This document shows positions 26,067 through 62,978 of a DNA stretch of 64,000 nt, in pieces. How positions within the stretch are numbered: position 1 is the first letter of the stretch; every line of letters starts with the position of its first letter. A program made the position numbers and the translations under genes. Origin of the DNA: Streptomyces sp. NRRL F-2664 (GTDB taxonomy: Bacteria; Actinomycetota; Actinomycetes; Streptomycetales; Streptomycetaceae); the NCBI RefSeq assembly GCF_000719345.1, contig NZ_JOFX01000008.1, positions 1 through 64,000 on the forward strand, in the 5' to 3' direction. The notes below the pieces were generated by a model. That model worked only from the letters and a program-made list of their open reading frames with translations. It made no database searches and was not told where the DNA came from.

Positions 26067-26067
26067 C

Positions 26068-26802: not shown

Positions 26803-26823
26803 GCGGGCCTCCAGGGCATGAGG

Positions 26824-26850: not shown

Positions 26851-26863
26851 GGGGTGGGGCGGG

Positions 26864-44722: not shown

Positions 44723-45022
44723 CTAGGTGACGGTGAGGGTTCCGGCCCGGCGGACGACGTGCTCGTCGTTGGGCGGGTCGATGCGGACCCAGACGTGCCA
44801 GGCGCCACGGGTGAGGGGCGCGTCCGTGGTGGGTCCGATGAGGATGCGGGCGGTGTCCGCGCCGTCCCATTCGCCGTCGAGCCAGTCGGCGAGCGCGGGG
44901 TTCGACCGGTTGGTGTCCGGGAGGAACTGGAACTGGGGCGGCGTGCCAGTGAGGTCGACGTCGGCCGGGGCGGTCTCGACGGTCACGTTGAGGTATTCGA
45001 TGCTGGTCGCGGGGATCACCAC
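44723..45022 (-). CDS. Phage structural-type protein, Ig-like
   Basis: 99 residues, beta-rich: SIEYLNVTVETAPADVDLTG, ARILIGPTTDAPLTRGAWHV and WVRIDPPNDEHVVRRAGTLT. It looks like an immunoglobulin-like or neck-appendage domain. The GTG at 45022 overlaps the stop of the repeat protein by seven bases, so it works with it. Confidence 0.6.
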   Translation of the reverse strand: MVIPATSIEYLNVTVETAPADVDLTGTPPQFQFLPDTNRSNPALADWLDGEWDGADTARILIGPTTDAPLTRGAWHVWVRIDPPNDEHVVRRAGTLTVT

Positions 45023-46041
45023 GGTGGACCGACCTCCCAGCGGCTGGCCGGCGCTGCGACCGCCCACGCGGAGGACGGGGCGCCGAGGGTGAGCGTGACG
45101 TCCGGATCGAAGCCGCCGACGTCGGGCGCGTAGAGGACGGCCGTGGACGCGATCGAGCCCAGGGCGACCGTCACCGTTCCAGGGGCGAGCGCTGGCACGT
45201 ACAGGGCCGTGGCGGGGTCGAGGCGGCCGGGATCGATCGTGACCGAACCGGGGGCGAGTGCGGGCCCGTACAGCGCGGACGTCGACTCGACGCGGGCCGG
45301 TGCCAGCGTGACGGCCCCCGGGGCCAGCGCGGGCGCGTACTGGGCCGCGGTGGACTCGATGCGGGCCGGGGCGAGGGGCTGCTCGCCGGCGGCGATGGCC
45401 AGGGTCCAGGCGGAGCCGAGGGCGGACTGGTCGGCCGTCCAGACGCGGGAGCCGATCGTCCCGGACACCGTGGCGTCCGAGTCGCCCCAGGCGCCCGAGC
45501 TGGCGCCGCTGCCCGAGGTGGTGAAGGCCTGCCCGCGCCTCGTGTGGCCCGCGGGCGCGGTCCAGGCCGCGGTCTGCGGTGTGGCAGCGCCCCGGGAGTC
45601 CCAGACGACGCCGATCTCCCGGCTCGCTGCGCCAACCGAGCCCAGGGACGGTGTGGTCTTCGTGAGGGCCGCGGCCGACGTGTTGGTGGCCGAGGTGATC
45701 GGGCTCGCGGCCAGGGCGCCGCGTACCCGGCCGAGGAGGAGCACCTGGCGGATGCTGCCAGTGCTCGGGGTGACGGTGATGACCGCGCCGAGGTCGCCGG
45801 CCTCGGCGATGCGCCACCACAGCTGGGACATGTGCCCGGACTGCATCGCGGTGCCCAGGCTCGTCCAGGCACCGGCGCCACCCGAGATGGCGAAGGTGCG
45901 GGACCCGCTGGGCATTACGCATGCGGCGAGGAGCAGGTCGCCGACGACGACTGAGCCGTCGTTGGGGATGGTGGCGGCCGCAGAGGAGCCGGTGGAGAGG
46001 GTGACGGTGTCGGCGAGGTGGGTGAGCTGCCCTACGGCCAT
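45016..46041 (-). CDS. Phage tail-fibre/adhesin-like protein with repeats
   Basis: 341 residues. The first 215 form a beta domain (TLSTGSSAAATIPNDGSVVV, WWRIAEAGDLGAVITVTPST) of the type seen in tail-associated proteins. Residues about 220-310 hold 22-23-residue repeats with ALAPG-x-VT--P-R--S-xALY-P (PALAPGAVTLAPARVESTSA, PALAPGSVTIDPGRLDPATA, PALAPGTVTVALGSIASTAV). These suggest a fibrous or stalk region. Upstream of the terminase, away from the main tail genes, it could be an extra receptor-binding or head fibre. Confidence 0.65.
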   Translation of the reverse strand: MAVGQLTHLADTVTLSTGSSAAATIPNDGSVVVGDLLLAACVMPSGSRTFAISGGAGAWTSLGTAMQSGHMSQLWWRIAEAGDLGAVITVTPSTGSIRQVLLLGRVRGALAASPITSATNTSAAALTKTTPSLGSVGAASREIGVVWDSRGAATPQTAAWTAPAGHTRRGQAFTTSGSGASSGAWGDSDATVSGTIGSRVWTADQSALGSAWTLAIAAGEQPLAPARIESTAAQYAPALAPGAVTLAPARVESTSALYGPALAPGSVTIDPGRLDPATALYVPALAPGTVTVALGSIASTAVLYAPDVGGFDPDVTLTLGAPSSAWAVAAPASRWEVGPPW

Positions 46042-46449: not shown

Positions 46450-46695
46450 TCAGGCGGCTTTGGGGTTGCGCTGGGGCATTGGCCGGTAGGTAGCTGCATG
46501 TGCCGCGACTTCAGGCAGCGCGTACATGGTCTTGAACTCGCGTCCATTGCCCGCGTACTCGCTGGGCCGTCCCTTGAACCGCCGAATCTTCCCGCGTCGC
46601 GCCCACTGGCGGATGACGGTTCCGGGGACCCCGGTTGCCTCGGTGGCTTCGTTCTCGAAGACGAGGTCGTTGGGGTACAGCTGATGCAGTTCCAT
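46450..46695 (-). CDS. Small MerR-like HTH DNA-binding protein
   Basis: 81 residues. FENEATEATGVPGTVIRQWA and RRGKIRRFKGRPSEYAG form a MerR/excisionase-like HTH, followed by a helix and a basic end. It heads the small structural operon to its left and may regulate it. The ATG at 46695 follows a weak GGGGGTGG. An upstream ATG at 46827 is unlikely. Confidence 0.65.
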   Translation of the reverse strand: MELHQLYPNDLVFENEATEATGVPGTVIRQWARRGKIRRFKGRPSEYAGNGREFKTMYALPEVAAHAATYRPMPQRNPKAA

Positions 46696-47066: not shown

Positions 47067-47342
47067 TCAGGCTGACGCGTTGGCGGGGTGTTCGCGCCTG
47101 TAGGTGGCGATGCACTCGCCGCAGAGGTCGCCGACGTACTCGTCGCCGCTCATGTAGTGGTGGGCGCCGCAGAAGTAGCCGCCGCATCCGTGGTCGTCGC
47201 CGCCGGGCGTCTGGCCGCACAGGTAGGCGAGGCCGCGGTCGATCTTCTCGTCGCAGCCGTCCTGCTCGCAGACGGCGTCGACGGCGTATCCGGCTTCGAT
47301 CTTCTGCCCGTTGCGGTTGATCGTGTAGTGGGCGTATCCCAT
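47067..47342 (-). CDS. Cys/His-rich zinc-binding phage protein
   Basis: 91 residues. MGYAHYTINRNGQKIEAGYA opens it, followed by CEQDGCDEKIDRGLAYLCG, CGGYFCGAHHY and GDLCGECIATYRREH, giving eight Cys and several His in a treble-ribbon pattern. It is a type seen often in Streptomyces phages and integrative elements, without known function; a host-takeover or transfer-linked role is possible. Confidence 0.7.
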   Translation of the reverse strand: MGYAHYTINRNGQKIEAGYAVDAVCEQDGCDEKIDRGLAYLCGQTPGGDDHGCGGYFCGAHHYMSGDEYVGDLCGECIATYRREHPANASA

Positions 47343-47384: not shown

Positions 47385-47843
47385 TCAGTTGCCGTTGTTG
47401 GTGGTCCTGGCCCAGATGCCGCGGGTCTGCGTGGTGACGTTCCGGTGTTCCTGACTGACAGGCCCGTTGTAGTTGTGGGTGTGGGAGTCGGGCACGAGCG
47501 TCTTGGCGCCGCGGAGCATCCGTGCGATGGCGAGGATCGGCACGGCCACGGCCGCGGGGGCAGCGCAGATCATGGCGATGACGGCCGGGTCGGCGTAGTC
47601 GGAGGCGATGAGGACGAGCGAGGTGGCGCCGCCGACGGACATGGTGACGACGCTGCCGGCGAGCATGAGGGCGCTGGTGTCGGTCGCCTTCTGGCTCATC
47701 GGGGGCCTACCGGGCTGGGGTACGGGCGGGGTGGGGCCGACGGCGGGCAGGAGGCTGGTGTCCCGGTAGGAAGTGGGGGTGTTGAAGGCGTCGGCGATGA
47801 GTCGTTCAGCCTCGGCGCGTTCGGCCTGGGTGTAGTCGGGCAT
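47385..47843 (-). CDS. Membrane protein next to the transfer module
   Basis: 152 residues. A helical start (YTQAERAEAERLIADAFNTP), Pro-rich linker, then two membrane helices (ALMLAGSVVTMSVGGATSLV and VIAMICAAPAAVAVPILAIA) and a polar tail with SHTHNYNGPVSQEHRNVTTQ. Small two-helix membrane proteins are found with tra genes of Streptomyces plasmids (Spd-like). It lies after the repeat-rich gap behind the FtsK/TraB-like gene. Confidence 0.6.
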   Translation of the reverse strand: MPDYTQAERAEAERLIADAFNTPTSYRDTSLLPAVGPTPPVPQPGRPPMSQKATDTSALMLAGSVVTMSVGGATSLVLIASDYADPAVIAMICAAPAAVAVPILAIARMLRGAKTLVPDSHTHNYNGPVSQEHRNVTTQTRGIWARTTNNGN

Positions 47844-47883
47844 GGCGGTTCTCCTGAGAGACGTTTGGGGTGGTTTGTGAGGG

Positions 47884-48066
47884 GGTGTGCGGGCCGCTGT
47901 GCGGACGCTGGCCGAACCGGCCTTCCGTGGCCGCTATCTCCATATATGTGCGGTTTGTGCACAGGCCGCACACCCGCACACCTCACGCGCCCGCACAGCG
48001 CGTCTGCCCAGGTAGACGGGGGTGTGAGTAGATCGGCACACCTTCGGCACACCCCCGCCGCACACC
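47884..48066. repeat. GCACACC repeat cluster, candidate clt transfer site
   Basis: The 244-base gap behind the FtsK/TraB-like gene holds five direct copies of GCACACC (47968-47974, 47976-47982, 48036-48042, 48047-48053, 48060-48066) and one inverted copy GGTGTGC (47884-47890), with partial copies between. TraB-type pumps of Streptomyces plasmids bind short direct repeats at the clt locus through a C-terminal winged helix, and clt often lies next to tra. The resemblance in place and form is direct; the function is inferred. Confidence 0.55.
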
Positions 48067-48087
48067 TGGCCTCGAAGCTCGTCCGGA

Positions 48088-50076
48088 TCAGACTCCGGCC
48101 AGGACCGGCAGGACCCGGTAGACGCCGGTCTCTCCGGTCGGGGCAAGCCGCTCCCCCTTCTCGCCGATCTTCTTCAGCTCCTTCGACACCCACGAGCGGT
48201 CGCGCCGCAGCTGCTCGAAGTACGGGGCGAAGTCCCTGACGGCGACGGTGCCGGGGCCGACGGAGGCCAGGGTGTCGATCAGTTCGTCGAGGAGCTCGCG
48301 GGCCGCCTCCGCGCTCGGCTTGTCCTTCGGAAGATCCACGACAGCCTCGACCGGCGGCAGTTCCTGCTGCAGATCGGCCAGCTCCTGCTCGGCGGCGTCG
48401 GTCATGTCGTCCTCGATTTCGATGGGTTCGGCCGGGGCGCGGCCCGGGTCCAAGGCGCGGGCCTTGCGGTTGGCGTACAGCTGACCGGCCACCTTTTCCG
48501 CGGCGGTGGCGGTGACGGTGTCGATGGCGGCTCGGATCCCCGCGAACTCGTTGACCAGCCAAGCGGCGGCCTTCTCGTACTCGCCGGACGGGCCGGTCCA
48601 GAAGGTGCGGGCCGGATTGGCGTACATGTCCTCGTCGATACCGGCGCTGACGAGGTACACGTACCCCTTGCGCTTGTTGCCCCAGGCTGCCGGGTTGGCC
48701 CCAGCGTCGAGGACTTCTTCGGGGAGAGCGAAGGAGGCGTCGTCACCGCGGACACCGAAGCAGGCTGCGGCAGGAAGGGATGCCCGGGTATCGGTGGAGA
48801 GCTGGTAGCCGGAGGCGCGCTGCATGGAGACGACGAGGGAGACGCCGGCGGAGCGGGCTTCCTGGGCAATGCCGGTGAAGGTGTCGTCGCCGAGTTCGCG
48901 GAGAAGCTTTGCTGCCTCTTCGAACCACGCGACGAGGTACTGGATCCCGGGGCAGCCGCATGTGCGGCCCTTCTGGCAGGAGTGCGCCTTGCTGGTCTGG
49001 GGCTCGGCTGCGGCCGGCTCCCAGGCCCGGTAGCCGTGGTCGCGGAGCCATGCGGTGCGGGCGGGGATGACGGCCTGGACGGCGGCGACCATCGCGCCGG
49101 CAGACGGGGTGTCGAGCGCCGCCCAGTCCATCGCGGGGACCAGCGGGAGGAAGTCCTGCCCGGCCTTGGCGGCGTCGGCGAGCCAGACGGCTACGTCCTT
49201 GCGGGTCAGGAGCTCGAACATGACGTCGAGGGCGCCTTCGGTTTTGCCGGAGCCGGTCATCCCCATGATCAGGATGTGGATTGCTTCGAGGAGCGGCAGG
49301 AGGAGTGCGCTGCCGTCGTCGTACACTCCGATCCGCAGGGGGACGGCTACGGACTGGGCGGCAGCGTAGGGGCCGGGCCAGCGGGTCGGGGTCTTCAGCA
49401 TGTCCTCAGGAACGATGACGATCTGGCCCTTGCGTGCGCTGTCGGGGTCGTGCTGGATACGGATCGCGGTGGTGGGAACGTCGAGGGCGGAGGCGATGCG
49501 AGGGATGGAGCGGGCGACGTCCTCATTGGTGAGTTCACCGGCGGGCAGCTCGTAGGGAACGGTGACCCGGTTGGGTTCGACCCTGACATCGCGAAGCTTG
49601 GTGCGGGCCAGACCGACCTTCTCCAGCAGGCCCTTGTCGGCGTCCGAGCCGGTGTCGTCTCCACCGCGCATCATCTGCCGCAGGTTCCAGGACAGGGCAA
49701 GGCCGGCGCCGCCCATCACGTACATGTCGTTCAGCGGCCCGGCAAGAGGGCCGGCGAGCGCTGCCGCGGTCGTCCAGGACGTGCCGGCTGCGACGGTGAT
49801 GGCGGTGTGGAGGCGGCGCTGCGGCCCGGCGGACTTGCCTGCCCACCAGGCGGCGGCGGTCAGGCCGACGGAGACCAGGGTGAGGCCGACGCCGGCGGGG
49901 GCGGAGTCCGCCCACATCAGGTTCCCGCCTGCCCCGGCGGCTCCGACGCAGCCGGTGATGATCCATGGCGGGCTGTACGGCTTGGCCCGGTGCCACAGCC
50001 AGCCCTTCAGGCCGGCCGCGGAGGAGCCTCCGTTCAGTCGGTCGTCGTGCCGCTGGGCCAGTTCGCTGCTCGCCAT
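48088..50076 (-). CDS. FtsK/SpoIIIE-type DNA translocase, TraB-like
   Basis: 662 residues. N-terminal membrane helices at about 35-55, 62-80, 90-112 and 116-130; a linker; then the motor at about 230-520 with Walker A GMTGSGKT (272-279), Walker B-region IQYLVAWFEEAAKL (378-391) and STDTRASLPAAACFGVRGDD. An insert CQKGRTCGCPG resembles a zinc loop. The last 60 residues (VRDFAPYFEQLRRDRSWVSK, ELKKIGEKGERL) form a winged helix like the gamma domain that reads repeats. Overall layout equals TraB of Streptomyces conjugative plasmids, which moves double-stranded DNA between hyphae as a hexamer. It is far larger than any phage protein with a known similar role. ATG at 50076 gives the first helix a normal start. 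Confidence 0.87.
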   Translation of the reverse strand: MASSELAQRHDDRLNGGSSAAGLKGWLWHRAKPYSPPWIITGCVGAAGAGGNLMWADSAPAGVGLTLVSVGLTAAAWWAGKSAGPQRRLHTAITVAAGTSWTTAAALAGPLAGPLNDMYVMGGAGLALSWNLRQMMRGGDDTGSDADKGLLEKVGLARTKLRDVRVEPNRVTVPYELPAGELTNEDVARSIPRIASALDVPTTAIRIQHDPDSARKGQIVIVPEDMLKTPTRWPGPYAAAQSVAVPLRIGVYDDGSALLLPLLEAIHILIMGMTGSGKTEGALDVMFELLTRKDVAVWLADAAKAGQDFLPLVPAMDWAALDTPSAGAMVAAVQAVIPARTAWLRDHGYRAWEPAAAEPQTSKAHSCQKGRTCGCPGIQYLVAWFEEAAKLLRELGDDTFTGIAQEARSAGVSLVVSMQRASGYQLSTDTRASLPAAACFGVRGDDASFALPEEVLDAGANPAAWGNKRKGYVYLVSAGIDEDMYANPARTFWTGPSGEYEKAAAWLVNEFAGIRAAIDTVTATAAEKVAGQLYANRKARALDPGRAPAEPIEIEDDMTDAAEQELADLQQELPPVEAVVDLPKDKPSAEAARELLDELIDTLASVGPGTVAVRDFAPYFEQLRRDRSWVSKELKKIGEKGERLAPTGETGVYRVLPVLAGV

Positions 50077-50090
50077 GGCGGTGTCTCCTC

Positions 50091-50618
50091 TCAGAACGTG
50101 AACGGGTTGGTGGTGGCTGCCCGCTGGGGTCGCGGCCGCATGAGGTCGGAGTACTCGCGGGTGAAGGCGGCGTAGGCGGCGACCGCGGCCTTGGCGGCGG
50201 AGGTCGCTCCGTCTCCGGCCTTCTTCAGCTGCCGGCCGACCTTGCGGGCCCGGAGCCGTCCCTGGATGGGGTTGTCGCCGGGCAGGGTCTGTGCCTGGGC
50301 CAGCCGGGCTTCGAGGATCTTGGAGGCCATCGCGAGTTCGATCGCGGCGTGGACCATGACGGCGCGGACGTGGTTGCAGTAGGCGCGGACCTCGTCGGTG
50401 TTGTTGAAGGACGGCTCGCCGAGCATGAAGTGGGAGGGCTGGTTCGCTCCGGCCATCTGCCCGCCGGCCGGGGCGGGTGCCTGCCGGTTGCCGTTGTTGA
50501 CATTGAAGTTGACGCCGAAACTGGGGGCGAAGCCGGTGAAGTTGTTGGTGGAGTTCTTGCCGGACTGCTTCTTGGTGTGCGCGCCGTTCGCGCCCTGCGG
50601 CGGGACGGTGGTGGTCAT
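50091..50618 (-). CDS. TraA-like plasmid transfer protein
   Basis: 175 residues. A disordered Asn/Pro-rich start (NNFTGFAPSFGVNFNVNNGN) is followed by a helical core (FNNTDEVRAYCNHVRAVMVH, AAIELAMASKILEARLAQAQ) and a basic Ala-rich helix (RKVGRQLKKAGDGATSAAKA) ending REYSDLMRPRP. The disordered-then-helical form, and its place right before the TraB-like gene, match the TraA-type accessory transfer proteins of Streptomyces integrative plasmids. Fifteen bases lie between its stop and the TraB-like start. Confidence 0.65.
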   Translation of the reverse strand: MTTTVPPQGANGAHTKKQSGKNSTNNFTGFAPSFGVNFNVNNGNRQAPAPAGGQMAGANQPSHFMLGEPSFNNTDEVRAYCNHVRAVMVHAAIELAMASKILEARLAQAQTLPGDNPIQGRLRARKVGRQLKKAGDGATSAAKAAVAAYAAFTREYSDLMRPRPQRAATTNPFTF

Positions 50619-51892
50619 CGGATGGTCCTCTCATCGGAGGTCTGGGTGGTGGCCTTGTGGGCTGCGATGGAGGCCTGCCTGCGGGCGGCGTCCACGAACT
50701 TGGGGGCATCGTTCGGGCGGCGGATTCCGCGCACCTTCGGGCCGGTCTTGGAGCCGCGCCCGGTTCCGGTGGGGAGATGTGGAACATGCTGGGCTTTTGT
50801 GACCTTGACGGGGGTCTCTCCGGGGGCGGTGGAGCGGGCGTGAAGGACGCGTCGTGTGGCGTTGTTCCGGCCGTTGATGATCTCGACGCTTTCGCCGGGT
50901 TCGGTGCCCTCGATGTCGAGATGCGCTTGCCGCCAGATGTCCTCGGTGACGGTCGTTTCCCCGAGCGCCGCGGCAAGCTTCTTGGCGTGCTTCCACACCT
51001 CGGGGAAGTCCGCCTCCCGGTCGGCGGCCAGCTGGGCCGCCTTCTCCGCGGCAGCGGCATCGGCTGCCTCCTGCTCGGCGCGCCGCTGCTTCTCCGCCTT
51101 GGCCTGCGCGACCGCCTCCGCGCGCTTGTTCCTCCGGGCGGTCCAGCGCTGGCGCCAGGTGGGCTTGCCGTCTCGGGATCGGATGCGTCCGTGCTCGTGC
51201 AGGTCCCAGATGCCGGGGCCGGCAAGTGAGGCGATGGCCGTACCGGCGGCGGTCGCGGTGTCGAAGGCGGTCAGCCCGTGCCACAGGTTCACGCCGGCGG
51301 CGACGAACGCGAGGGCCCAGGCGATGAGTCGGTAGTGCCAATGCGGCCGCCGGTCGTCGACTGCCGCTGCGGCGCCGCGGAGGACGACCCAGGCTGCTCC
51401 TTCGAGAACGAGGGGGGCGGCCAGCAGGTAGCGGGCGTCCTCGCGGTAGAAGGCGTTCATCTGGACCGGGAGCGCCACGATGCCGCAGACGATCGCGAAG
51501 CCGATCGCCGCGTGCCGCCAGGATGTGGCGGACTTCTCCCTCTGCTCGTCGGCCTCAGCCTCGGCGAGGTCGGCCGCTTCGGCTGCGAGCCGTTCCTTCT
51601 CGGCTTCGCGGGCTTCGGCGGCCGCCTTGCGCTCAGCTTCGGCGATCTTCGCGTTCTGCTCGGCCTCGAACCGCTGGAGCTGGAGCGCGGCCCGCTTGTT
51701 GGCCAGGGTCTGCTTCTCGGCCTCGGCGGCGGCCTTGGCACGGACCGCTTCGGCTTCGGCTTCGGCGGCGATCCGGCGGGCTTCGGCGTCGGTGGCCGCC
51801 TTGGTGCGGATGGCTTCCGCCTCGGCGAGGGCCACCGGGTCGAACCGCGGCGCGACGGCAGCGCCGTTGATGTGGTCCAGCTGGGCGGTCAT
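50615..51892 (-). CDS. Spd-like membrane protein with coiled coil (DUF2637 type)
   Basis: 425 residues. A long Ala/Glu-rich coiled coil at about 20-130 (EAEAIRTKAATDAEARRIAA and similar heptads), then four hydrophobic helices at about 135-230 (HAAIGFAIVCGIVALPVQMN, YLLAAPLVLEGAAWVVLRGA, LIAWALAFVAAGVNLWHGLT), a second coiled coil at 245-300 and a basic tail. The DUF2637-like membrane unit is typical of SpdB-type intramycelial spread proteins. GAGGAGG precedes the ATG at 51892. The stop overlaps the TraA-like start (ATGA). It probably links the pump to the septal wall. Confidence 0.78.
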   Translation of the reverse strand: MTAQLDHINGAAVAPRFDPVALAEAEAIRTKAATDAEARRIAAEAEAEAVRAKAAAEAEKQTLANKRAALQLQRFEAEQNAKIAEAERKAAAEAREAEKERLAAEAADLAEAEADEQREKSATSWRHAAIGFAIVCGIVALPVQMNAFYREDARYLLAAPLVLEGAAWVVLRGAAAAVDDRRPHWHYRLIAWALAFVAAGVNLWHGLTAFDTATAAGTAIASLAGPGIWDLHEHGRIRSRDGKPTWRQRWTARRNKRAEAVAQAKAEKQRRAEQEAADAAAAEKAAQLAADREADFPEVWKHAKKLAAALGETTVTEDIWRQAHLDIEGTEPGESVEIINGRNNATRRVLHARSTAPGETPVKVTKAQHVPHLPTGTGRGSKTGPKVRGIRRPNDAPKFVDAARRQASIAAHKATTQTSDERTIR

Positions 51893-51918
51893 AGCGATGT
51901 CCTCCTCGGTGTGACCGG

Positions 51919-52137
51919 TTAGGCGGCGGCCAGGGTGCGGAAGCCGTCGAACTCGGGGGTGACGGGCGCTTCGGGGTACAGCAGGTCGAAGTCGGCGGCG
52001 AGAGCTTCGTAGCGGCGCATGCCGAGTTCGTCGCCGCGTCGGCGGGCGTCGAGGTAGCGGTCGATGAGGGTGGTGGCGGTCCGGTCGGCGTCGTCGAGCC
52101 GGTTCAGTTCCAGCTCGGTGATCAGGTGGAGCGGCAT
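51919..52137 (-). CDS. Small protein of the transfer operon
   Basis: 72 residues: MPLHLITELELNRLDDADRT, ATTLIDRYLDARRRGDELGM, RRYEALAADFDLLYP. Helical and acidic, with a short C-terminal extension. In the same direction and close to the Spd-like gene (26 bases). Similar small proteins are common in AICE tra operons; no function known. Confidence 0.6.
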   Translation of the reverse strand: MPLHLITELELNRLDDADRTATTLIDRYLDARRRGDELGMRRYEALAADFDLLYPEAPVTPEFDGFRTLAAA

Positions 52138-52178
52138 GGCGGTGGTCCTTCCGGTGGTCAGGCGGGGTGGGATGGGGT

Positions 52179-52433
52179 TCAGGCGGTGGGGCGGGGCATG
52201 GCCCGGCAGGTCTCGGCATGGGCCTGGGCCTGCTCGTGGATCGTGGCGGCGGAGAACGGGTCACCAAACGGGCCCGTGTACTTGCCCTTGCTCGTCCCGG
52301 GGCAGGCACGGCAGGCCCAGTGCGACGGGTGGCCACCCAGGACATCCACGGTGGAGCCACCGACGGTCAGGTACCGGTGGGTCACACCTTCGGGCCAGGC
52401 GGGGGCGAACGCGGTCAGGTGGGTTTCGGGCAT
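52179..52433 (-). CDS. Mobile-element transfer-type small protein
   Basis: 84 residues. EGVTHRYLTVGGSTVDVLGG, HPSHWACRACPGTSKGKYTG and TIHEQAQAHAETCRAMP hold a CxxC plus a late C/H pair, like a small zinc-binding protein. Such proteins accompany tra/spd operons in Streptomyces integrative elements. Starts on ATG at 52433. Confidence 0.6.
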   Translation of the reverse strand: MPETHLTAFAPAWPEGVTHRYLTVGGSTVDVLGGHPSHWACRACPGTSKGKYTGPFGDPFSAATIHEQAQAHAETCRAMPRPTA

Positions 52434-52470
52434 GGCTGTCCTCCGGTTGGTCGTGCCGGGGTGGGGTGGT

Positions 52471-52638
52471 CTAGCTGCGGTGGGTGTGCTGCTGGCCGGC
52501 GCCGAGCTGCGCGGTGGCGTTGCGGGCGTCCGCGGCGGCCTGCGCGGCCTGAGCAGGCGGCCTGTAGTCGGACTGGCAGTCCGCGACCGTGGTCGGCTTG
52601 CTGGCGAAGCTGTGCTCGCGCGGGGCGGAGGCGGCCAT
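52471..52638 (-). CDS. Small hypothetical protein coupled to the HTH gene
   Basis: 55 residues: MAASAPREHSFASKPTTVAD followed by an Ala/Gln-rich helix and a His-containing end. The ATG overlaps the stop of the HTH gene (ATGA-like at 52635-52640). Composition is low in structure. It is probably translated, given the tight overlap and operon, but its function is unknown. Confidence 0.5.
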   Translation of the reverse strand: MAASAPREHSFASKPTTVADCQSDYRPPAQAAQAAADARNATAQLGAGQQHTHRS

Positions 52639-52850
52639 CAGGCGGCGCTCGGGGCGAGGCGCAAGTCAACCTCGGACCTCGGAACGCGGATGGCGCCGCC
52701 TCGGCGGGTGTCACCCTCGGGCCGCTCCTTGCCATAGCGGATGGCGCGCATCTCGTCATTGGCGATCCACCGGTAGACGGTGGGCTTAGAGACTCGGAGG
52801 GCTGCCGCGACTTCTTGCACGGTCAGCAGTCCTGAGTTGTCGGGCAGCAT
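52638..52850 (-). CDS. Excisionase-like HTH protein
   Basis: 70 residues. LLTVQEVAAALRVSKPTVYR, WIANDEMRAIRYGK and GGAIRVPRSEVDL form the classic MerR-like winged HTH of excisionases and RDFs. As the first gene of the transfer operon, next to the GntR-controlled promoter, it may direct excision or act as a regulator. Small HTH proteins of this kind lie at the same place in pSAM2-type elements. No integrase is next to it. Confidence 0.8.
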   Translation of the reverse strand: MLPDNSGLLTVQEVAAALRVSKPTVYRWIANDEMRAIRYGKERPEGDTRRGGAIRVPRSEVDLRLAPSAA

Positions 52851-52885
52851 CTGGCAATCACTCCAATCCGTTGCTCTGGGCTGAT

Positions 52886-53007
52886 GTTCTCAACTGTAGG
52901 TGGAGTCTTGAGAAGTGACAACCGTATCGAGCTCATCGGCATGTCTTGTCAGCCCTCACCCCCGACCTGAGCTGCCCGTATGGTTGGAAATTCGCTACGT
53001 TCTCAAC
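52886..53007. promoter_or_regulatory. Divergent operator region with GTTCTCAA half-sites
   Basis: GTTCTCAAC occurs at 52886-52894 and 52999-53007, and CTTGAGAAG at 52907-52915 faces the first. TTCTCAA and TTGAGAA thus make an inverted pair over the transfer-operon promoter, and a further half-site lies just before the UTRA gene. The 184-base gap is AT-richer than its flanks and has no gene. These are good candidates for the binding site of the GntR protein encoded at 53567. Confidence 0.5.
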
Positions 53008-53034
53008 AGGGCTAGGCAATGAGAGGAGTGACGG

Positions 53035-53565
53035 ATGGTGGAAGGCAGGTGGGTGGGAAACTCATCGCCCTACCTGGCCGCAGGCGGGGATACCTGGGCA
53101 GAAGAGGCTGCCGCTGCTGGAGCTGTAGGCAGCCAGCGCATCGTCTACGCAGGAGGAACGGTTCCTCCGGAGGGCGTGAGGGCCGCACTGCGCCTCGCCC
53201 CCAACGAGCCGGCCGTCCTGCGTCGGCGGCTCATCCTGCTGAACGGCCGACCCGTAGAGATCGCGGACTCCTATTGGCCGGCGGACGTGGCTGTCGACAC
53301 GCCCCTCGAAAACCCCGGCCGCATCCGCGGCGGCGCAGTCGCGGCGCTGGCGGAACGCGGCTGGACCCCCTCCGACGTGCGAGAAGCCGTGACCGCCCGG
53401 CCCCCCACGGCTGAAGAGTGCCGTCTCCTAGAGTCGCCACCCGAAGAGTGGGTCCTGGTACTCACGCGCCTGATCGTCAACAGCTCAGGCAGGCCCTATG
53501 AGGTCGCGGTCATGACCTCCCCCGCAACCACCCGCCAGCTGAACTACTCGATGAAGGTCGACTGA
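53035..53565 (+). CDS. UTRA-domain protein lacking the GntR DNA-binding domain
   Basis: 176 residues. The whole body aligns with the UTRA half of the next gene: VPPEGVRAALRLAPNEPAVL, RRRLILLNGRPVEIADSYWP and RIRGGAVAALAERGWTPSDV match VPPAAIRAALGL, LRRQVLFLDDEPCEL and KIRGGVGRVLAEAGFAPI. The N-terminal 35 residues hold no winged helix. GAGGAG at six bases fixes the ATG at 53035. Being a duplicate without a DNA-binding part, it may pair with the full GntR protein and change its activity, or sense the same ligand as an antagonist. It is coupled to the GntR gene (TGA-t-ATG). Confidence 0.8.
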   Translation: MVEGRWVGNSSPYLAAGGDTWAEEAAAAGAVGSQRIVYAGGTVPPEGVRAALRLAPNEPAVLRRRLILLNGRPVEIADSYWPADVAVDTPLENPGRIRGGAVAALAERGWTPSDVREAVTARPPTAEECRLLESPPEEWVLVLTRLIVNSSGRPYEVAVMTSPATTRQLNYSMKVD

Positions 53566-53566
53566 T

Positions 53567-54331
53567 ATGGCCAATGCACCCAAGGAAGACCCCAGCGTCT
53601 GGTCGACCCAGGATCAGATCGCTGCCTATCTGCGTGACGGAATCCTCTCTGGCGACTTCCTGCCTGGGGAGAAGCTACCGTCGAGCCGAGCGCTCACCGA
53701 CAAGTTCGGCGCCGCCGCCCAGACGATTCGCAACGCAGTCATCACGCTGGAGAAGGAAGGCCTGGCCTACTCCAAGCAGGGCTTGGGAGTGATCGTTCGA
53801 GAGCATCCGCAGCGAACGATGGAGCCAGCCAAGTACAAGACCCCACCCACGGGCGACGGCAAGTATCAGTGGATCGCTGAAGCGGAGAAGCGCGGTTCGG
53901 CGGGCAAGAGCGAGCTACGCGAGGTCGAGGAGGTTGTCCCGCCCGCGGCCATCCGCGCCGCCTTGGGGCTGGACGAGGGGGAACGTGCCCTGCTGCGGCG
54001 GCAGGTGCTGTTCCTGGATGACGAGCCGTGCGAGCTGGTCGAGTTGTACGTGCCGCTGGACCTCGCCGCTGGAACGCCAATCGCGGAGCACCGCAAGATC
54101 CGAGGTGGCGTCGGGCGTGTCCTCGCGGAAGCCGGCTTCGCGCCGATCCGCTGCGTCGACAAGGTCGCTGCGCGGTGGCCGACGCCGGAACAGGCGCAGG
54201 CTCTTCGCATGCCCACCAAGCTTCCGGTCCTGAGGACGTTCCGAGTCACGTACAGCACCAACGACCGCCCAATCCAAGCCGAGATCATGGCCAAGGCGGG
54301 CCACCTGTACGAGCTGCAGTACGAGTTCTGA
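53567..54331 (+). CDS. GntR/UTRA regulator, KorSA-like position
   Basis: 254 residues. Winged helix at about 15-80: DQIAAYLRDGILSGDFLPGE, LPSSRALTDKFGAAAQTIRN, TLEKEGLAYSKQG. UTRA domain at about 110-254 (REVEEVVPPAAIRAALGLDE to MAKAGHLYELQYEF). GntR-type repressors such as KorSA of pSAM2 keep the transfer and replication genes of actinomycete elements silent; this one is divergent from an Xis-Spd-TraA-TraB-like operon, the expected place. It ends at a hairpin 37 bases later. Confidence 0.88.
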   Translation: MANAPKEDPSVWSTQDQIAAYLRDGILSGDFLPGEKLPSSRALTDKFGAAAQTIRNAVITLEKEGLAYSKQGLGVIVREHPQRTMEPAKYKTPPTGDGKYQWIAEAEKRGSAGKSELREVEEVVPPAAIRAALGLDEGERALLRRQVLFLDDEPCELVELYVPLDLAAGTPIAEHRKIRGGVGRVLAEAGFAPIRCVDKVAARWPTPEQAQALRMPTKLPVLRTFRVTYSTNDRPIQAEIMAKAGHLYELQYEF

Positions 54332-54398: not shown

Positions 54399-55013
54399 TC
54401 ATGCCGCGGCCCTTCCCGCCATGGGCAGCTGCAGTACCTCGCTGTGCCCGTACTGGGTGTCGCAGCCGGGGCAGCGGGCGCCGGGGGTGTCGATGGTGAC
54501 GCGGAGGACGGTGCCGCACGGGCATTGGACGGGGATACGGCGGGGCGGCTTCTCTCCGGTCAGCTGTCCTTCGGCCTGCCGGCGTATCTGGCTGATCTCG
54601 CGGGCGAACTCGGCGAAGGCGGGGTGGGAGGCGGCGGCCCACGCGAGGTTGATGCGGAGGGCGTGGACGGCCTGGTCGAGCTGGCCTTGGAGGTCGCCGG
54701 CCCAGCGCGGGTAGCGCCAGCCGAGGGTGTCGTGCCAGTCGACGAGCCAGGTCTGCAGGATCGTGACGATGCCCCCGCGGGAGGTCAAACTCAGCGGCTC
54801 CAGCCGGACGGGGATGGGGGCGCCGCGGGTGCCGGAGACGACGGGACCGCCGCTGCTGCTGCCGGGGGTGAGGCTGACGGCGAGCTGGGCGTACAGGCCG
54901 TCGGGGCCGGCGAGGGTCCGGAGGTGTTGGTCGACGCGGGCGGTGCAGGGGCGGCAGGCCTGGTAGTCGAGCTCGTCGGCGTAGAGGGCGCTCGTGCAGA
55001 CGGTGCAGTGCAT
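54399..55013 (-). CDS. Phage early protein with zinc ribbons at both ends
   Basis: 204 residues. The N-terminus MHCTVCTSALYADELDYQAC gives two CxxC pairs with CRPC; the middle is helical (IVTILQTWLVDWHDTLGWRY, ALRINLAWAAASHPAFAEFA); the end PVQCPCGTVLRVTIDTPGAR and CPGCDTQYGH forms a second ribbon. It is the last gene of the early operon and recurs in Streptomyces phages. A nucleic-acid-binding role is likely; nothing more can be said. Confidence 0.68.
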   Translation of the reverse strand: MHCTVCTSALYADELDYQACRPCTARVDQHLRTLAGPDGLYAQLAVSLTPGSSSGGPVVSGTRGAPIPVRLEPLSLTSRGGIVTILQTWLVDWHDTLGWRYPRWAGDLQGQLDQAVHALRINLAWAAASHPAFAEFAREISQIRRQAEGQLTGEKPPRRIPVQCPCGTVLRVTIDTPGARCPGCDTQYGHSEVLQLPMAGRAAA

Positions 55014-55040
55014 TGGTGCTCCTTGCGGCGGCGCGGGTGG

Positions 55041-55298
55041 TCAGGCGTCGAGGTGTCGGAGTGCGATGCGGAGTCCGGCGGCGATGCTGCTGTGGCTGAT
55101 CGCGCCGGCTTCGGTCTGGCTGAGCGGGACGCATTCCTCGTGGTGGTCGGCGTCGGCGCGTATCCGGTCGGTGCGCTCCTGGATGACGGCGAGGATGGCG
55201 TCGACGAGCTCCGCCTGGCCGGCGGGTGGGAGCCACCATTGGCCGTCGCGGATGGCGTGCCGGGCGGCGGTCAGGGCCTGGTCGCGGAGGGCGGTCAC
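55041..55298 (-). CDS. Small early protein
   Basis: 85 residues: LRDQALTAARHAIRDGQWWL, ELVDAILAVIQERTDRIRAD, then a His/Glu-rich centre and IAAGLRIALRHLDA. Mostly helical. It overlaps the Cys-rich gene by four bases (ATGA), showing it is part of the coupled early operon. Function unknown. Confidence 0.6.
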   Translation of the reverse strand: MTALRDQALTAARHAIRDGQWWLPPAGQAELVDAILAVIQERTDRIRADADHHEECVPLSQTEAGAISHSSIAAGLRIALRHLDA

Positions 55299-55999
55299 AG
55301 GACGGCCTTCCTGACGGCGTTGACGTGGTCATCGAGGCGAGCGACGAGGTCGGCTGCGGCGCGGCCCAGCTGCACGAGGGTGCCGGTCACGAGGGGCCCG
55401 GTGGGGGCGTGCAGGAGCTCGTCGGCGGCGCACGGGTTGGGGCAGTCGATGCGGCTACAGGTGACGTGGCCGCCGTCGCCGAGGAAGAGCGATGCGCCTC
55501 GGCAGGCGGGGCAGCGGCCAGCCACGTCGGGGAGGGCGGGCTGCTTGAGCGAATGCCGGTGGAAGCCGTGCTCAAAGCAGAAGCCCTCCTCGCCGGAGCA
55601 CTTTGTCGAGTCCGGCGGCTCGGAGACTTCCGCGCTGACGGCTGGGTCGTTGACGCCGGTCCGGATGCAGGGGTTGTCGGTGCACTGGCAGTCGGCGCAG
55701 TGCACGCAGAACGGCAGCTCGCGGTAGTTGCGGTAGACGACCGGGCCGCCGCCGCACACGCAGCAGGCGGGCTCCTCCGTGGCAGTCACCTCCAGCCGGA
55801 GGCCCTTCGCGCGGGCGGCCTGCATGAGGGCGGTCAGGGTGGGGTCGTCGTCGGTGACGGGTAGGTGCTGCTCGGGGTGGCTGCAGCACTGGTCGAAGCC
55901 GCCGTGGCAGTCGGACTCGACCTCGCCTGCGGTGGGGCAGAAGTAGGTGCTGGCGCCGGGCTTGCAGACGTGCGGGTCAGTGGAGTTGGTCTCGGTCAC
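55295..55999 (-). CDS. Large Cys-rich early protein
   Basis: 234 residues with about 22 cysteines. ACCVCGGGPVVYRN, CVHCADCQCTDNPC, CPACRGASLFL and CSRIDCPNPC are four zinc-binding groups; the C-terminal 40 residues are a helix (LVQLGRAAADLVARLDDHVN). The first 45 residues also hold C-H pairs. It resembles multi-ribbon proteins of actinophage early operons. Probably a DNA, RNA or protein hub; not recognised further. Confidence 0.65.
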   Translation of the reverse strand: MTETNSTDPHVCKPGASTYFCPTAGEVESDCHGGFDQCCSHPEQHLPVTDDDPTLTALMQAARAKGLRLEVTATEEPACCVCGGGPVVYRNYRELPFCVHCADCQCTDNPCIRTGVNDPAVSAEVSEPPDSTKCSGEEGFCFEHGFHRHSLKQPALPDVAGRCPACRGASLFLGDGGHVTCSRIDCPNPCAADELLHAPTGPLVTGTLVQLGRAAADLVARLDDHVNAVRKAVL

Positions 56000-56135
56000 A
56001 GCAGATTCCCGGGGTGTGGAGGGTGGTGGTCGGGCGGGGGATCTCGAAGCCGTGCATGTCGAGGAACGCGGCTTCGTCGGGGTCGATGCGGGAGACGTGG
56101 GTCCAGTGGCCGGTCGGCGGCTGCTCGGCGGTCAC
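55977..56135 (-). CDS. Small early protein
   Basis: 52 residues, VTAEQPPTGHWTHVSRIDPD followed by EAAFLDMHGFEIPRPTTTLH and a CCDRDQLH end. Starts on GTG, overlapping the preceding stop by four bases (GTGA at 56132-56135), and its own end overlaps the next gene by 23. Function unknown. Confidence 0.55.
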   Translation of the reverse strand: MTAEQPPTGHWTHVSRIDPDEAAFLDMHGFEIPRPTTTLHTPGICCDRDQLH

Positions 56136-56317
56136 GGCGCGGCCTCGGCGGCGAGGCGGTCGCGGTGGGGTGTGGCGCCGGGCGCGCCGTCTTTCCACCG
56201 GAGCGTCGTCTCGTCGGCCTCGGGCCCGCGGTGCCAGTCGTCGTCGTGTCGGGCGGGGAGGGTGCAGTGGTGGAGGCGGGCCGTCACCGAGTCGTCGATA
56301 CGAGCCGTACACGTCAT
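56132..56317 (-). CDS. Small early protein
   Basis: 61 residues. MTCTARIDDSVTARLHHCTL, ARHDDDWHRGPEADETTLRW. Short beta-like unit with C/H residues and a disordered tail; the pattern C-x(16)-C-x(5)-H-x(4)-H may bind zinc. Overlaps on both sides (four bases each). Function unknown. Confidence 0.55.
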   Translation of the reverse strand: MTCTARIDDSVTARLHHCTLPARHDDDWHRGPEADETTLRWKDGAPGATPHRDRLAAEAAP

Positions 56318-56640
56318 CGCGGGCTCCCGTTCGGGTTGGTGGGCTCGCTGGCGTCGAGGAGGGCGAGGGCGTGCTGGAGCAGGGCCCGGCAGATGGCGCG
56401 CTCGCGGGGGTCGGCGGGCGCCTGCTCGTCGACCTTGGTGATGGCCGTGCCGTAGGTGGAGAGGTAGACCAGGGTGGGCCCGGCGGCGGCGCTGATGGTC
56501 CATGCGGGCTCGTCTGTGGGCATTCCGGCGATGGTGTCGGGGTCGACGTCGGGGCCGCCGGGGTTGTGGGCGGGGCATCCCTCGGGGCAGCCGTGGGCTT
56601 CGCCGATGGCGTGGGGGTCGCTGATCTCGATGTCGGTCAT
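56314..56640 (-). CDS. Early protein, HHH-type Cys pair start
   Basis: 108 residues. HAIGEAHGCPEGCPAHNPGG gives C-x3-C-x-H; the middle (EPAWTISAAAGPTLVYLSTY) and the helix (RERAICRALLQHALALLDAS) look like a small alpha/beta unit. In the coupled early operon with four-base overlaps on both sides. Function unknown. Confidence 0.55.
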   Translation of the reverse strand: MTDIEISDPHAIGEAHGCPEGCPAHNPGGPDVDPDTIAGMPTDEPAWTISAAAGPTLVYLSTYGTAITKVDEQAPADPRERAICRALLQHALALLDASEPTNPNGSPR

Positions 56641-56855
56641 GAGGGCCTCCGGTGTCGTGGCCGTGTGCGGCCGTTCGCGGGCCGTTCGGGCGCGGGCGGG
56701 CCGCCGGGGTCCGGGCGGCCCCAGTTCGTGGCGTGGGGGTCGGTGTGGCGGGTCTGCCGGTCCTGCTCCTCGCCGTGGCGGAGGGCGTAGCTGAAGGCGA
56801 CCGCGGCGAGGGCTATGACGGTGAGGCCGCCGGCGACGAGGGGCAGGGTCAACAC
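56637..56855 (-). CDS. Small single-pass membrane protein
   Basis: 72 residues. VLTLPLVAGGLTVIALAAVA forms one membrane helix right at the start; the rest is a polar, Arg/Pro-rich cytoplasmic tail. The GTG at 56855 is four bases past the stop of the SLOG gene. It might anchor an early phage protein to the membrane. Function unknown. Confidence 0.55.
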   Translation of the reverse strand: MLTLPLVAGGLTVIALAAVAFSYALRHGEEQDRQTRHTDPHATNWGRPDPGGPPAPERPANGRTRPRHRRPS

Positions 56856-56859
56856 GGGG

Positions 56860-57312
56860 CTACGCCTCCCAGCGGCGGACCGGGATGCCCGCCCGCTCGG
56901 CCGCATTCGCGCATCCGGTGGCGCCGTGGCTGCCGTGCGGGCCGGGCTTACGGCAGCGGGGCGAGGTGCACGGTCCGATGAAGGCGAGGCACTCCTCCGC
57001 GCCACGGCTGACCATGTGGGCGTTGCGGCGAGGGCCGCACGCGGGCCACGGGCCGTGCTCCTCGGCCGGGTGCGGCTCGATGTCGACGGGGTAGCCGCTG
57101 CGTTGTGCGCGACGGGCCCATGCGTCGGCGTGGCCGTCGGTGCCACGCAGGCGGCCATAGCGGTCCTGGCAGGCTCCGTGCACGAGTACGAGACGTTGGC
57201 CGGGCTGGAGGCCTTGAAGTCGCTGGTCCAACGCTGCGTTGACGGGCTGGGGGTCTTGGGCGTCGCGGCTTCCGGTGACGAGGATGCGGTAGGGCGCGGG
57301 CTGCTGGCTCAT
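56860..57312 (-). CDS. SLOG-domain protein (DUF2493/YspA-like)
   Basis: 150 residues. YRILVTGSRDAQDPQPVNAA has the first strand and G-S-R-D motif of the DUF2493 branch of the SLOG superfamily; RLVLVHGACQDRYGRLRGTD and GHADAWARRAQRSGYPVDIE carry the G-A and the DxxA signature; a Cys-rich insert CTSPRCRKPGPHGSHGATGC follows near the end. SLOG proteins bind nucleotides or their derivatives and often serve as sensors in phage-host conflict. This is one of two SLOG-type genes within 2 kb. Overlaps the next gene by four bases. Confidence 0.8.
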   Translation of the reverse strand: MSQQPAPYRILVTGSRDAQDPQPVNAALDQRLQGLQPGQRLVLVHGACQDRYGRLRGTDGHADAWARRAQRSGYPVDIEPHPAEEHGPWPACGPRRNAHMVSRGAEECLAFIGPCTSPRCRKPGPHGSHGATGCANAAERAGIPVRRWEA

Positions 57313-57782
57313 GCTCCGGCCCCCTCGGCGGCGCGGCTGACCGGGTCGTAGCCGGTGCAGGTCGGCGCTGTGGTGTCGTCGGGGTCGCAGGAGTCGCAGA
57401 GCAGGCGACCGGACACGGTGACGTGCTCAGCCTTCGCGTGGCTGCACATGCAGGCACCCCTGGCTTGGCGCAGCGCTTCGGCGGTGGCGTCGGCCCCCTC
57501 GGCGGTGGCACGGGTGGGCAGCTGCCTCGCGAGGACTTCGCGGGCCACGGCTTCGGCCGCGTTCCACATGTGGTAGCCGGGCTCGTTGTCCCGGTAGGGG
57601 GCGAGCCAGGCCAGGGCATCGGCCGTGGCGTTCATCCACTTGGCGATCTCGGCGACGGCCTCGGCGGGGATCTGCGGGTCGTATCCCTCGTCGAGGCCGC
57701 GCGCCGCCTGATCGGCAAGGTGGCGGGCGGCGGCTTGCATCTCGGCAGCCTGGGGCCAGATGGTGGGCTTGCGGTCCGTCAT
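57309..57782 (-). CDS. Early protein with zinc ribbon at the end
   Basis: 157 residues. Helical first half (WPQAAEMQAAARHLADQAAR, AEIAKWMNATADALAWLAPY, AAEAVAREVLARQL) and a C-terminal ribbon (CMCSHAKAEHVTVSGRLLCD, SCDPD). The C-terminal unit resembles that of proteins recurring in Streptomyces phage early regions. It is coupled to the SLOG gene by an ATGA overlap. Function unknown. Confidence 0.6.
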   Translation of the reverse strand: MTDRKPTIWPQAAEMQAAARHLADQAARGLDEGYDPQIPAEAVAEIAKWMNATADALAWLAPYRDNEPGYHMWNAAEAVAREVLARQLPTRATAEGADATAEALRQARGACMCSHAKAEHVTVSGRLLCDSCDPDDTTAPTCTGYDPVSRAAEGAGA

Positions 57783-57861
57783 GAGGGCGGGTCCTTCCGG
57801 TGGTGTGGGTGGTGTCCGGGCCGGCCGCCCCAGGACGGGGGCGACCGGCAGCGGGGCGGGG

Positions 57862-58251
57862 TCAGGCGGCGGGATCCACCTCGGGGTGGGTGAACCGGAC
57901 GGGCTTGCCGAGGCTTCGGGCGTAGGCGATCTCGGCGCGGGTGCTGTCGCCGATGTAGTCGCCGACTACGAGCACCTCGTCGGCGAGCCGGATCTTGGCT
58001 CGGTGCAGGCCGTCGAGCCGGACCTTGAGCTCCTCGGCCTCGACCGGGTCGGCCCAGCGGGGGTGCGGGCTCTTCATGTCGCAGCCGGGCATCACGACGA
58101 TGTGGCCGTCCGCGGTGAGCTGCAGGTCGGCCTCACCCATCTCGGTCATGAAGCGGGTGCTGCCACAGATGCAGACGATCTTCGGGATGTTGAGTCGCTC
58201 CTTGGCACTGGCGAGCTTCTCTTCCGGGGTGAGCAGTTCGGGGTAGGACAT
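57862..58251 (-). CDS. Nucleoside 2-deoxyribosyltransferase-like / SLOG-type protein
   Basis: 129 residues. PKIVCICGSTRFMTEMGEAD holds the I-C-G-S-T-R-F motif, and VLVVGDYIGDSTRAEIAYAR the G-x-S--E-I-x-Y-A signature with the conserved Glu and Ser; these are seen in nucleoside 2-deoxyribosyltransferases and related SLOG members. It may process or sense a nucleotide. The ATG at 58251 is followed by a charged helix before the domain. It stands apart from its neighbours by 74-80 bases on each side. Confidence 0.78.
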   Translation of the reverse strand: MSYPELLTPEEKLASAKERLNIPKIVCICGSTRFMTEMGEADLQLTADGHIVVMPGCDMKSPHPRWADPVEAEELKVRLDGLHRAKIRLADEVLVVGDYIGDSTRAEIAYARSLGKPVRFTHPEVDPAA

Positions 58252-58325
58252 GTGGGTTTCTCCTTGTGCGCGGGTCGGGTCAGGCGAGTTGGGGCGGCGG
58301 ACTGGGCGTGGCCTCTGAGGGCCTC

Positions 58326-58664: not shown

Positions 58665-58695
58665 CGGGGTGTCCTTCCGTGAGAGGCTGGTCGGG

Positions 58696-58724
58696 CGCCC
58701 GCCGGACTTCGACTCCGGCGGGCG
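58696..58724 (-). terminator. 11-bp perfect hairpin after the methyltransferase gene
   Basis: CGCCCGCCGGA pairs with TCCGGCGGGCG around CTTCGAC, 10 bases past the stop at 58734. It ends the methyltransferase message on the minus strand. Confidence 0.75.
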
Positions 58725-58733
58725 TCCTGCTGT

Positions 58734-62756: not shown

Positions 62757-62776
62757 GACTTCTTCTCTCTGGCTGC

Positions 62777-62941: not shown

Positions 62942-62978
62942 GGCAGGCTTCTCTCTGGCTGGCTGTGCGGGTGGTGGG

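Follow-up and report, generated by a model that had tools for sequence, protein, structure and literature searches.

A plasmid-type TraB pump with predicted clt repeats in an integrated Streptomyces siphophage

Introduction

Plasmid-phages can propagate and conjugate as episomes and also make infective particles (as stated in a passage of PMC4170104). Three replicons of this kind, pZL12, pCQ3 and pCQ4, are compared here with a prophage integrated in the chromosome of Streptomyces sp. NRRL F-2664, which carries a plasmid-like conjugation (tra) module between its early genes and its virion genes. The DNA under study, hereafter the window, is a stretch of 64,000 nucleotides (positions 1 to 64,000 of contig NZ_JOFX01000008.1, handle C8) that opens this 173-kb contig, which belongs to a draft genome of 8 Mb; later positions are given as contig positions.

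All three replicons resemble the prophage in layout. In pCQ4 (NC_019307), a GntR gene, small genes, TraA, TraB and a further small gene precede the terminase, portal and capsid genes, and pCQ3 (NC_013449) is arranged alike, with annotated capsid and tail genes but without a named terminase. In pZL12 (phage ZL12, NC_013420), phage genes are preceded by a GntR gene, a gene for a membrane protein, an FtsK-like gene and a Spd-like gene whose product is 46% identical to that of the prophage, and a gene of the lysis region (24994-25434) is shared with the prophage at 78% identity. Here, pCQ3 and pCQ4 are called phage-plasmids from their annotated phage genes and pFP4 by citation only. The original prediction for this locus had proposed two ways out of the cell and had cited pZL12 for the combination of phage and plasmid functions; two such ways out have a precedent, each of the three replicons having a tra module adjoining virion genes. 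On the other hand, they are extrachromosomal replicons of 85-90 kb, with ParA/ParB in pZL12, whereas the element described here is a 54.5-kb chromosomal prophage with an integrase and attachment (att) sites, none of whose called proteins matched the ParA/ParB genes of pZL12. Moreover, its TraB is only 35-36% identical to those of pCQ3 and pCQ4, and the motor of pZL12 was rejected as a TraB relative for want of detectable similarity. Since pZL12, pCQ3 and pCQ4 have a similar layout, the combination of phage and tra genes is already known; what is new is its chromosomally integrated form with exchangeable cassettes of pump and clt, the cis-acting transfer locus. No integrated siphophage with TraB and clt is described in the titles and abstract beginnings of the openly licensed papers retrieved by full-text search, and the terms FtsK, conjugat- and TraB are absent from the main text of a survey of actinobacterial prophages (PMC10023795).

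Two further classes of elements resemble the prophage. Rolling-circle plasmids of the pJV1/pSN22 type share with it TraA, TraB, a divergent GntR repressor and CCGCACA clt repeats behind traB, whereas the prophage lacks a matched rolling-circle Rep and its module is set in a phage. The clt of pJV1 consists of nine repeats CCGCACA[C/G][C/G], and that of pWTY27 contains four TGACACC bound by its Tra protein (both in an excerpt of PMC3583192). Actinomycete integrative and conjugative elements (AICEs) of the pSAM2 type are likewise integrated and code for a tyrosine integrase, an FtsK-like transfer protein and a GntR regulator; the prophage differs from them in combining int and tra genes with virion genes, and in that no Rep or primase-polymerase was recognised.

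We consider it probable (roughly 0.66) that a temperate siphophage took up a plasmid conjugation cassette, TraA-TraB plus clt, at a position (the slot) that separates its early from its late genes, and that TraB would transfer clt-tagged double-stranded DNA (dsDNA) beside the virion route. The sequence itself shows an open pump gene with accessory genes, cognate clt repeats, a single att pair along with an integrase gene, occupation of this slot in other phages as well, and purifying selection on TraB.

The pump and its predicted clt

The tra module comprises the following features:

47067-47342, minus strand: small module gene (phrog_9476, E 9.3e-17)
47385-47843, minus strand: Spd-like small membrane protein, two hydrophobic segments, 46% identical to the phage ZL12 (pZL12) gene adjoining its FtsK-like gene
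47844-48087: clt-like locus in the 244-bp gap behind traB, seven CCGCACA, four on the plus and three on the minus strand
48088-50076, minus strand: traB, FtsK/SpoIIIE-like DNA pump, Walker A motif GMTGSGKT, C-terminal winged-helix-like region by alignment
50091-50618, minus strand: traA (NF041213 plasmid_TraA, 134.4 bits, cut-off 80)
50615-51892, minus strand: SpdB-like membrane protein, three hydrophobic segments, 76% identical in relative G072 and 37% in relative G257
51919-52137, 52179-52433 and 52471-52638, minus strand: three small module genes (gene call), with relatives in G072 or G257
52638-52850, minus strand: excisionase-like helix-turn-helix (HTH) gene, first of the tra operon (TIGR01764, 50.7 bits against a cut-off of 28.8; PF12728)
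53035-53565, plus strand: UTRA-only gene, divergent from the tra operon (PF07702, E 4.7e-18), without a GntR DNA-binding domain
53567-54331, plus strand: GntR-UTRA regulator, TraR/KorA-like by position (PF00392, PF07702), 28% identical to the GntR protein of pSN22

The pump is a plasmid TraB of the pJV1/pSN22 type, with nearest kin other than chromosomal FtsK. Its best plasmid matches reach 75.7% (662/662 residues, an annotated plasmid TraB), 75.1% and 74.9% identity over the full length; six plasmid TraBs lie at 68-76% identity and 97-100% coverage, and TraB of pSN22 is 70.5% identical over 99%. Streptomyces accounts for 45 of the 51 plasmid records matching TraB. In a tree of 22 TraBs, the protein pairs with that of the integrated siphophage G257 (100/100) within the pSN22 group (100/100), and the TraB of a second such phage, G072, forms a long branch of unsure place. 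The link to FtsK is made by profile matches to solved FtsK chains (E 6e-5) and the winged helix is read from sequence alignment. The proposal of an FtsK/TraB-like pump with a winged-helix end was upheld, by plasmid TraBs at 70-76% identity and by a match to the family NF041214 just short of its cut-off. Purifying selection appears to act on TraB, as its dN/dS against G257 is 0.087 over 662 codons (0.22 for TraA), from simple Nei-Gojobori counts on GC-rich genes.

Several other gene assignments were also sound: TraA and the excisionase-like gene both exceed their family cut-offs, and an HTH_17 gene takes the place of the latter in G257. Two stood in part. The membrane protein proposed as Spd/DUF2637-like corresponds to SpdB-like and Spd-like proteins with hydrophobic segments, but DUF2637 was not confirmed, the SpdB-like protein having no Pfam match and no BLAST similarity to the DUF2637 protein of the NBC_00104 plasmid; a family search with PF10935 (DUF2637) returned nothing in 30 records nor in controls and is hence uninformative. 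Likewise, one member of the proposed divergent GntR repressor pair is a GntR-UTRA gene, but the other is UTRA-only, and may act as a co-regulator or anti-repressor. A similar pair (78% and 56%) recurs at a locus of G171 (L158), where it is accompanied by an excisionase-like gene (61%).

Seven CCGCACA behind traB compare with 0.10 expected, and none of 5000 simulated first-order chains reached that number. Elsewhere in a 100-kb stretch, outside the two bins spanned by the cluster, every 250-bp bin has at most one copy. The repeat is identical to the published pJV1 clt repeat and is the commonest word behind all seven other pSN22-type TraBs compared (pSN22, the NBC_00104 plasmid and L123-L127). 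This type of clt extends beyond plasmids, since the AICE-like locus L127, with primase-polymerase-like and Rep-like neighbours, carries such repeats along with its pSN22-type TraB. Behind nine more distant TraBs (L129-L137, a group that we take to be AICE-type), other words prevail (CTGACAC, GACACCC, ACGCGTC), which are candidate clt sites of other elements, and the C-terminal winged-helix-like segments differ too. The repeats of the pJV1 clt are reportedly needed, to judge from the title of a reference (Franco 2003) in PMC3583192. The phage DNA itself is predicted to bear a cognate clt for its TraB.

A single integrated element

The borders of the prophage and the genes to the right of the module are as follows:

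17631-17643: attL core CCACATGTCGACG, an exact 13-bp repeat whose second copy (attR) lies beyond the window at contig 72137-72149 (L007:12137-12149)
54399-64000, minus strand, continuing to about 69.4 kb of the contig: phage early operon (Pfam)
contig 65092-66177: RecT, in the early operon
contig 70770-72044, beyond the window and beside attR: tyrosine integrase of 424 aa, open gene (PF00589, E 9.9e-14)

From attL (17631) to contig position 72149, the prophage measures 54.5 kb. In the relative G038 the site is empty: sequence of the left flank up to 17642 runs directly into that of the right flank from 72137, and the 12 bp common to both are the att core. An alpha/beta-hydrolase fold is matched by 16902-17636 and the right flank continues in frame into the att core; the element appears to split an alpha/beta-hydrolase gene. 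Read from right to left on the minus strand, the early operon (from about 69.4 kb) is followed by the tra module (52.9-47.0 kb) and by the virion and lysis genes (46.4-24.6 kb). The early operon that had been placed at 54.4-64 kb is present but extends past the window. It also contains a C-5 cytosine DNA methylase gene (58734-59798).

A module so plasmid-like, and of an origin unlike that of the virion genes, might be a separate conjugative element that inserted into, and split, an unrelated phage. We give this next to no credence. A single att pair accounts for the whole 54.5 kb and the site is empty in G038; repeats of at least 11 bp around the tra module, sought as att sites of its own, reach 13 bp at best, no longer than those between other stretches; and the slot and its neighbours are the same in G257, G072 and others. 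Because of the single att pair, the empty site and the slot filled likewise in other phages, the tra module is assigned to one prophage, as the original prediction had it, and the att sites of its own that were named there as the mark of a separate element were not found.

The pSAM2-type arrangement suggested for the module was not borne out, as no plasmid or AICE replication initiator was found and both TraB and clt belong to the pJV1/pSN22 type. When the called non-virion proteins of at least 250 aa were scanned with Pfam, no plasmid or AICE Rep family appeared in the element. Nor did it contain a match to the Rep of pSN22, to either of two primases of NBC_00104 or to two proteins from an AICE-like element, of which one has PF09250 and the other is named Rep by position only.

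The IMG/VR provirus IMGVR_UViG_2767802045_000001 is the same DNA cut at 18238 and 70804, without both att sites and nearly all of the integrase. A small serine recombinase (described below) was considered as the sole recombinase of the element and rejected once open reading frames past the window and the empty site pointed to the integrase at contig 70770-72044, which had been missed by the gene caller and by the IMG/VR record.

Joint exchange of pump and repeats

The integrated siphophages G257 and G072 carry the module in the same slot. In G257, TraB is 92% identical to that of the prophage, TraA 77%, SpdB 37% and Spd 52%, the 233-bp gap behind traB holds four CCGCACA, and the module sits between early genes partly like those of the window and an unrelated head module (portal 24%). 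The backbone of G072 is partly closer (early genes 64478 at 100% and 54399 at 93%, lysis gene 25435 at 93%), as are SpdB (76%) and Spd (78%), but TraB (46%) and TraA (50%) are not; in its 201-bp gap, CTGACAC occurs five times and TGACACC four times while CCGCACA is absent, the repeats (CTGACACC) being as in the clt of pWTY27. Since TraB and the repeats of G072 differ while SpdB and Spd stay conserved, pump and address repeats were exchanged jointly within a conserved frame.

Such exchange bears on the possibility that the cassette is a mere passenger, derived from a plasmid or AICE by recombination into the phage and either inert or acting only to kill or exclude. Without regulation, tra genes are lethal, and TraA-TraB looks like the replacement of another motor in the slot. 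However, the low dN/dS of TraB, the clt repeats kept and swapped along with the motor, the motor-like genes in the slot of 7/30 related virus records and the portal behind 9/33 SpdB places (see below) all speak against a passenger, which we hold to be improbable.

Two observations concern the same relatives. The early protein at contig 64478-65095 (L007:4478-5095) is 100% identical in G072 despite unrelated head modules, which suggests recent exchange. An AICE-like element adjoins the G257 prophage (G257:C5:1895149-1899317), with genes for an integrase, an excisionase-like protein, a protein of 491 aa and a Prim-Pol protein (PF09250), and an integrase related to its own (69%) recurs at G257 1909515.

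Proposed transfer of the prophage

By analogy with plasmid systems, we infer that the prophage could be transferred as follows. The divergent GntR protein would keep the tra operon off, and derepression would yield the excisionase-like protein, SpdB, TraA and TraB. The excisionase-like protein and the integrase would release a circular prophage; TraB would assemble at clt in the hyphal membrane and drive the phage genome, as double-stranded DNA, across to the adjacent compartment or to mycelium in contact with it, SpdB and Spd would help the phage DNA to spread, and the integrase would re-insert the transferred circle. Virion production would be a second, lytic route.

Several results weigh against uptake of a working plasmid cassette by a phage. 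TraB scores 790.4 bits (E 1.3e-237) with NCBIfam NF041214 plasmid_TraB, just under the cut-off of 800, and 17.6 bits with PF01580 FtsK_SpoIIIE, under the cut-off of 24. A simple hydropathy scan (threshold 1.5) detected no N-terminal membrane segment in TraB, the sole segment being at Walker A. In G072, the tra operon begins without a recognisable excisionase-like gene, SpdB and Spd evolve fast (dN/dS of about 0.8 between this prophage and G257), and the four-repeat gap of G257 is unexceptional by count in its own genome (p 0.086). TraB relatives at E 1e-60 or better occupy 53 places in 46/295 genomes, and a PF04860 portal stands beside 3/53 of these places, a lower bound because PF04860 misses some portals. 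Finally, no TraB relative was found among 50,697 deposited phage records. In IMG/VR, searches with TraB, an alignment query included, returned this same prophage record alone, from scans that need short conserved peptides.

If uptake of the cassette by the phage is correct, integrated phages too, beyond the extrachromosomal plasmid-phages, would use FtsK-type transfer of double-stranded DNA, and a pump and its recognition repeats would travel between plasmids and viruses as one unit.

Distribution of the module and of its slot

A query with the SpdB-like protein identified 33 places in 31/392 genomes. A portal gene follows SpdB on the same strand, 7.6-11.2 kb away, in nine of them (the window, G072, G257, G423, G429, G143, G427, G126 and G392). 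Ten SpdB loci were fetched (six new ones and four others), and all ten have a gene of 672-756 aa, matching the motors of G022 or G321, that lies immediately behind SpdB or is separated from it by one or two small genes. The locus L098 (G106) looked like a phage on account of its 1084-aa gene but was not counted, three of its proteins being without a PHROG match.

That an SpdB-like gene is kept with varied motors in the ten fetched loci would also suit a role within a single mycelium: the pump might move phage DNA across the cross-walls of one hypha, in lysogeny or in the course of a lytic infection, and thereby raise the number of compartments that carry or make phage, and transfer between strains would be incidental. 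SpdB2, a spread protein of pSVH1, is known to interact with TraB (a passage of PMC4170104). Yet TraB and clt of this type, when borne by plasmids, serve for transfer between mycelia, and the sequence fits both uses; we regard spread restricted to one mycelium as unlikely, while granting it some weight.

Relatives of the phage portal at E 1e-60 were found in 6/295 genomes. Among the five other than this one, the slot holds SpdB-like and motor-like genes in G321 but not in G209, G100 and G286; for G052 the fetched stretch is insufficient to judge. A motor-like gene occupies the slot in 7/30 IMG/VR records of portal relatives, this prophage counted; five were recognised by PF01580 and two (G002, G022) by position and similarity, and many of the 30 records are fragments. 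Of the other 23, 17 are readable over the slot and none has a gene of at least 600 aa there, the remaining six being impossible to judge.

Phages of these 17 records thus manage without such a gene, which argues against the pump being a helper in packaging or segregation, i.e., an FtsK-like motor that clears or resolves phage DNA rather than transferring it. An FtsK-like domain, a position a few genes upstream of the terminase and the presence of the small serine recombinase would fit a helper; the nearest relatives of the pump, however, are annotated transfer proteins with TraA alongside, and its clt equals a transfer site. In our opinion this role is very improbable, and a transfer motor remains the preferred reading of TraB.

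Other motors in the slot and the repeats behind them

The comparison was extended to 20 loci (three TraB phages and 17 with non-TraB motors), 16 of them with virion genes in view. All 20 motors are linked in one blastp chain at E 1e-5. Fourteen of the non-TraB motors were scanned with Pfam, G321, G200 and G148 being left out: four exceed the PF01580 cut-off (G003, G006, G030 and G427), two fall below it (G014 and G143), and the other eight, lacking a hit, count as motors through the chain of similarity alone.

The gap behind the motor gene spans 94-244 bp. By comparison, 740 other same-strand gaps have a median length of 13 bp, and 10.5% of them reach 150 bp. The commonest 7-mer in this position is enriched at the 5% level or better behind 13/17 non-TraB motors and in two of the three TraB phages, with no significant enrichment behind G427, G126, G148, G321 and G257; these p-values are rough, as the other 250-bp windows of the same sequence used for comparison overlap. 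With 400-bp stretches and simulated chains, enrichment was seen 3′ of 6/7 non-TraB motors and 5′ of 0/6. Motor similarity tracks repeat similarity across the 20 loci (Mantel r 0.53, p 0.0002) and among the 17 non-TraB motors (r 0.44, p 0.0004); in a control stretch, r was 0.17 (p 0.02).

We tentatively propose, at slightly less than even odds, a widespread clan of integrated Streptomyces siphophages whose slot between early and late genes accepts exchangeable cassettes of motor and address, either TraB with pJV1- or pWTY27-type clt or other FtsK-like motors with repeats of their own. Such phages would exit as virions or, without lysis, as clt-tagged dsDNA through and between hyphae. Our reserve stems from PF01580, which was confirmed over its cut-off in only four of the 14 scanned motors and gave no hit in eight. 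The correspondence of motors and repeats has exceptions, namely the motors of G321 and G427, 87% alike yet with unlike words behind them, and the less alike pairs G171/G148, G200/G126 and G014/G006, whose words are unlike as well. The motor-repeat pairs offer a ready set for finding the pump residues that read each repeat, and also bear on how viruses cope with multicellular hyphal hosts.

The phage backbone

The remaining genes of the prophage within the window are listed from left to right:

18238-18852, plus strand: GntR/UTRA regulator (Pfam), immunity side by position
19418-20173, plus strand: HTH regulator (Pfam, blastp), 79% identical in G257 and 73% in G072, immunity side by position
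23501-24106, minus strand: small serine recombinase, resolvase domain (PF00239, E 3.1e-27)
24635-27412, minus strand: lysis region (PHROGs, blastp), with an endolysin-like gene at 26068-26802
27939-30248, minus strand: tail gene (PHROGs)
30245-32590, minus strand: tape measure (PHROGs)
33688-34674, minus strand: minor tail (PHROGs)
35408-36244, minus strand: connector (PHROGs)
36899-38164, minus strand: major head (PHROGs)
38230-38976, minus strand: protease (PHROGs)
38966-40210, minus strand: portal (PHROGs)
40377-41909, minus strand: TerL (PHROGs)
45016-46041, minus strand: minor-tail-like gene between the tra module and the terminase (phrog_8501, E 8.7e-9), with a 76% relative at the same place in G427
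46450-46695, minus strand: MerR-like HTH gene (phrog_2474), downstream border of the slot in several relatives

The siphovirus virion genes reported at the outset were recovered with PHROGs (TerL, portal, protease, major head, connector, tape measure, minor tail and an endolysin-like gene), and the gene set of a temperate HK97-type siphophage is complete, with terminase, portal, protease, capsid, tape measure, lysis genes, integrase and att sites. The element is apparently an integrated, complete temperate siphophage. Its lysis-region gene at 25435-25791 has counterparts of 91% identity in G257 and of 93% in G072, and relatives of the MerR-like HTH gene (59-70%) occur in G002, G003, G022, G423, G429, G427, G126 and G045.

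A serine recombinase behind the lysis genes is also present in G072 (C26:34689-35273, 34%), besides a tyrosine integrase that is weakly supported there. The tape measure has 781 aa, against 1122-1268 aa in G002, G003, G006, G022 and G004, which would mean a shorter tail.

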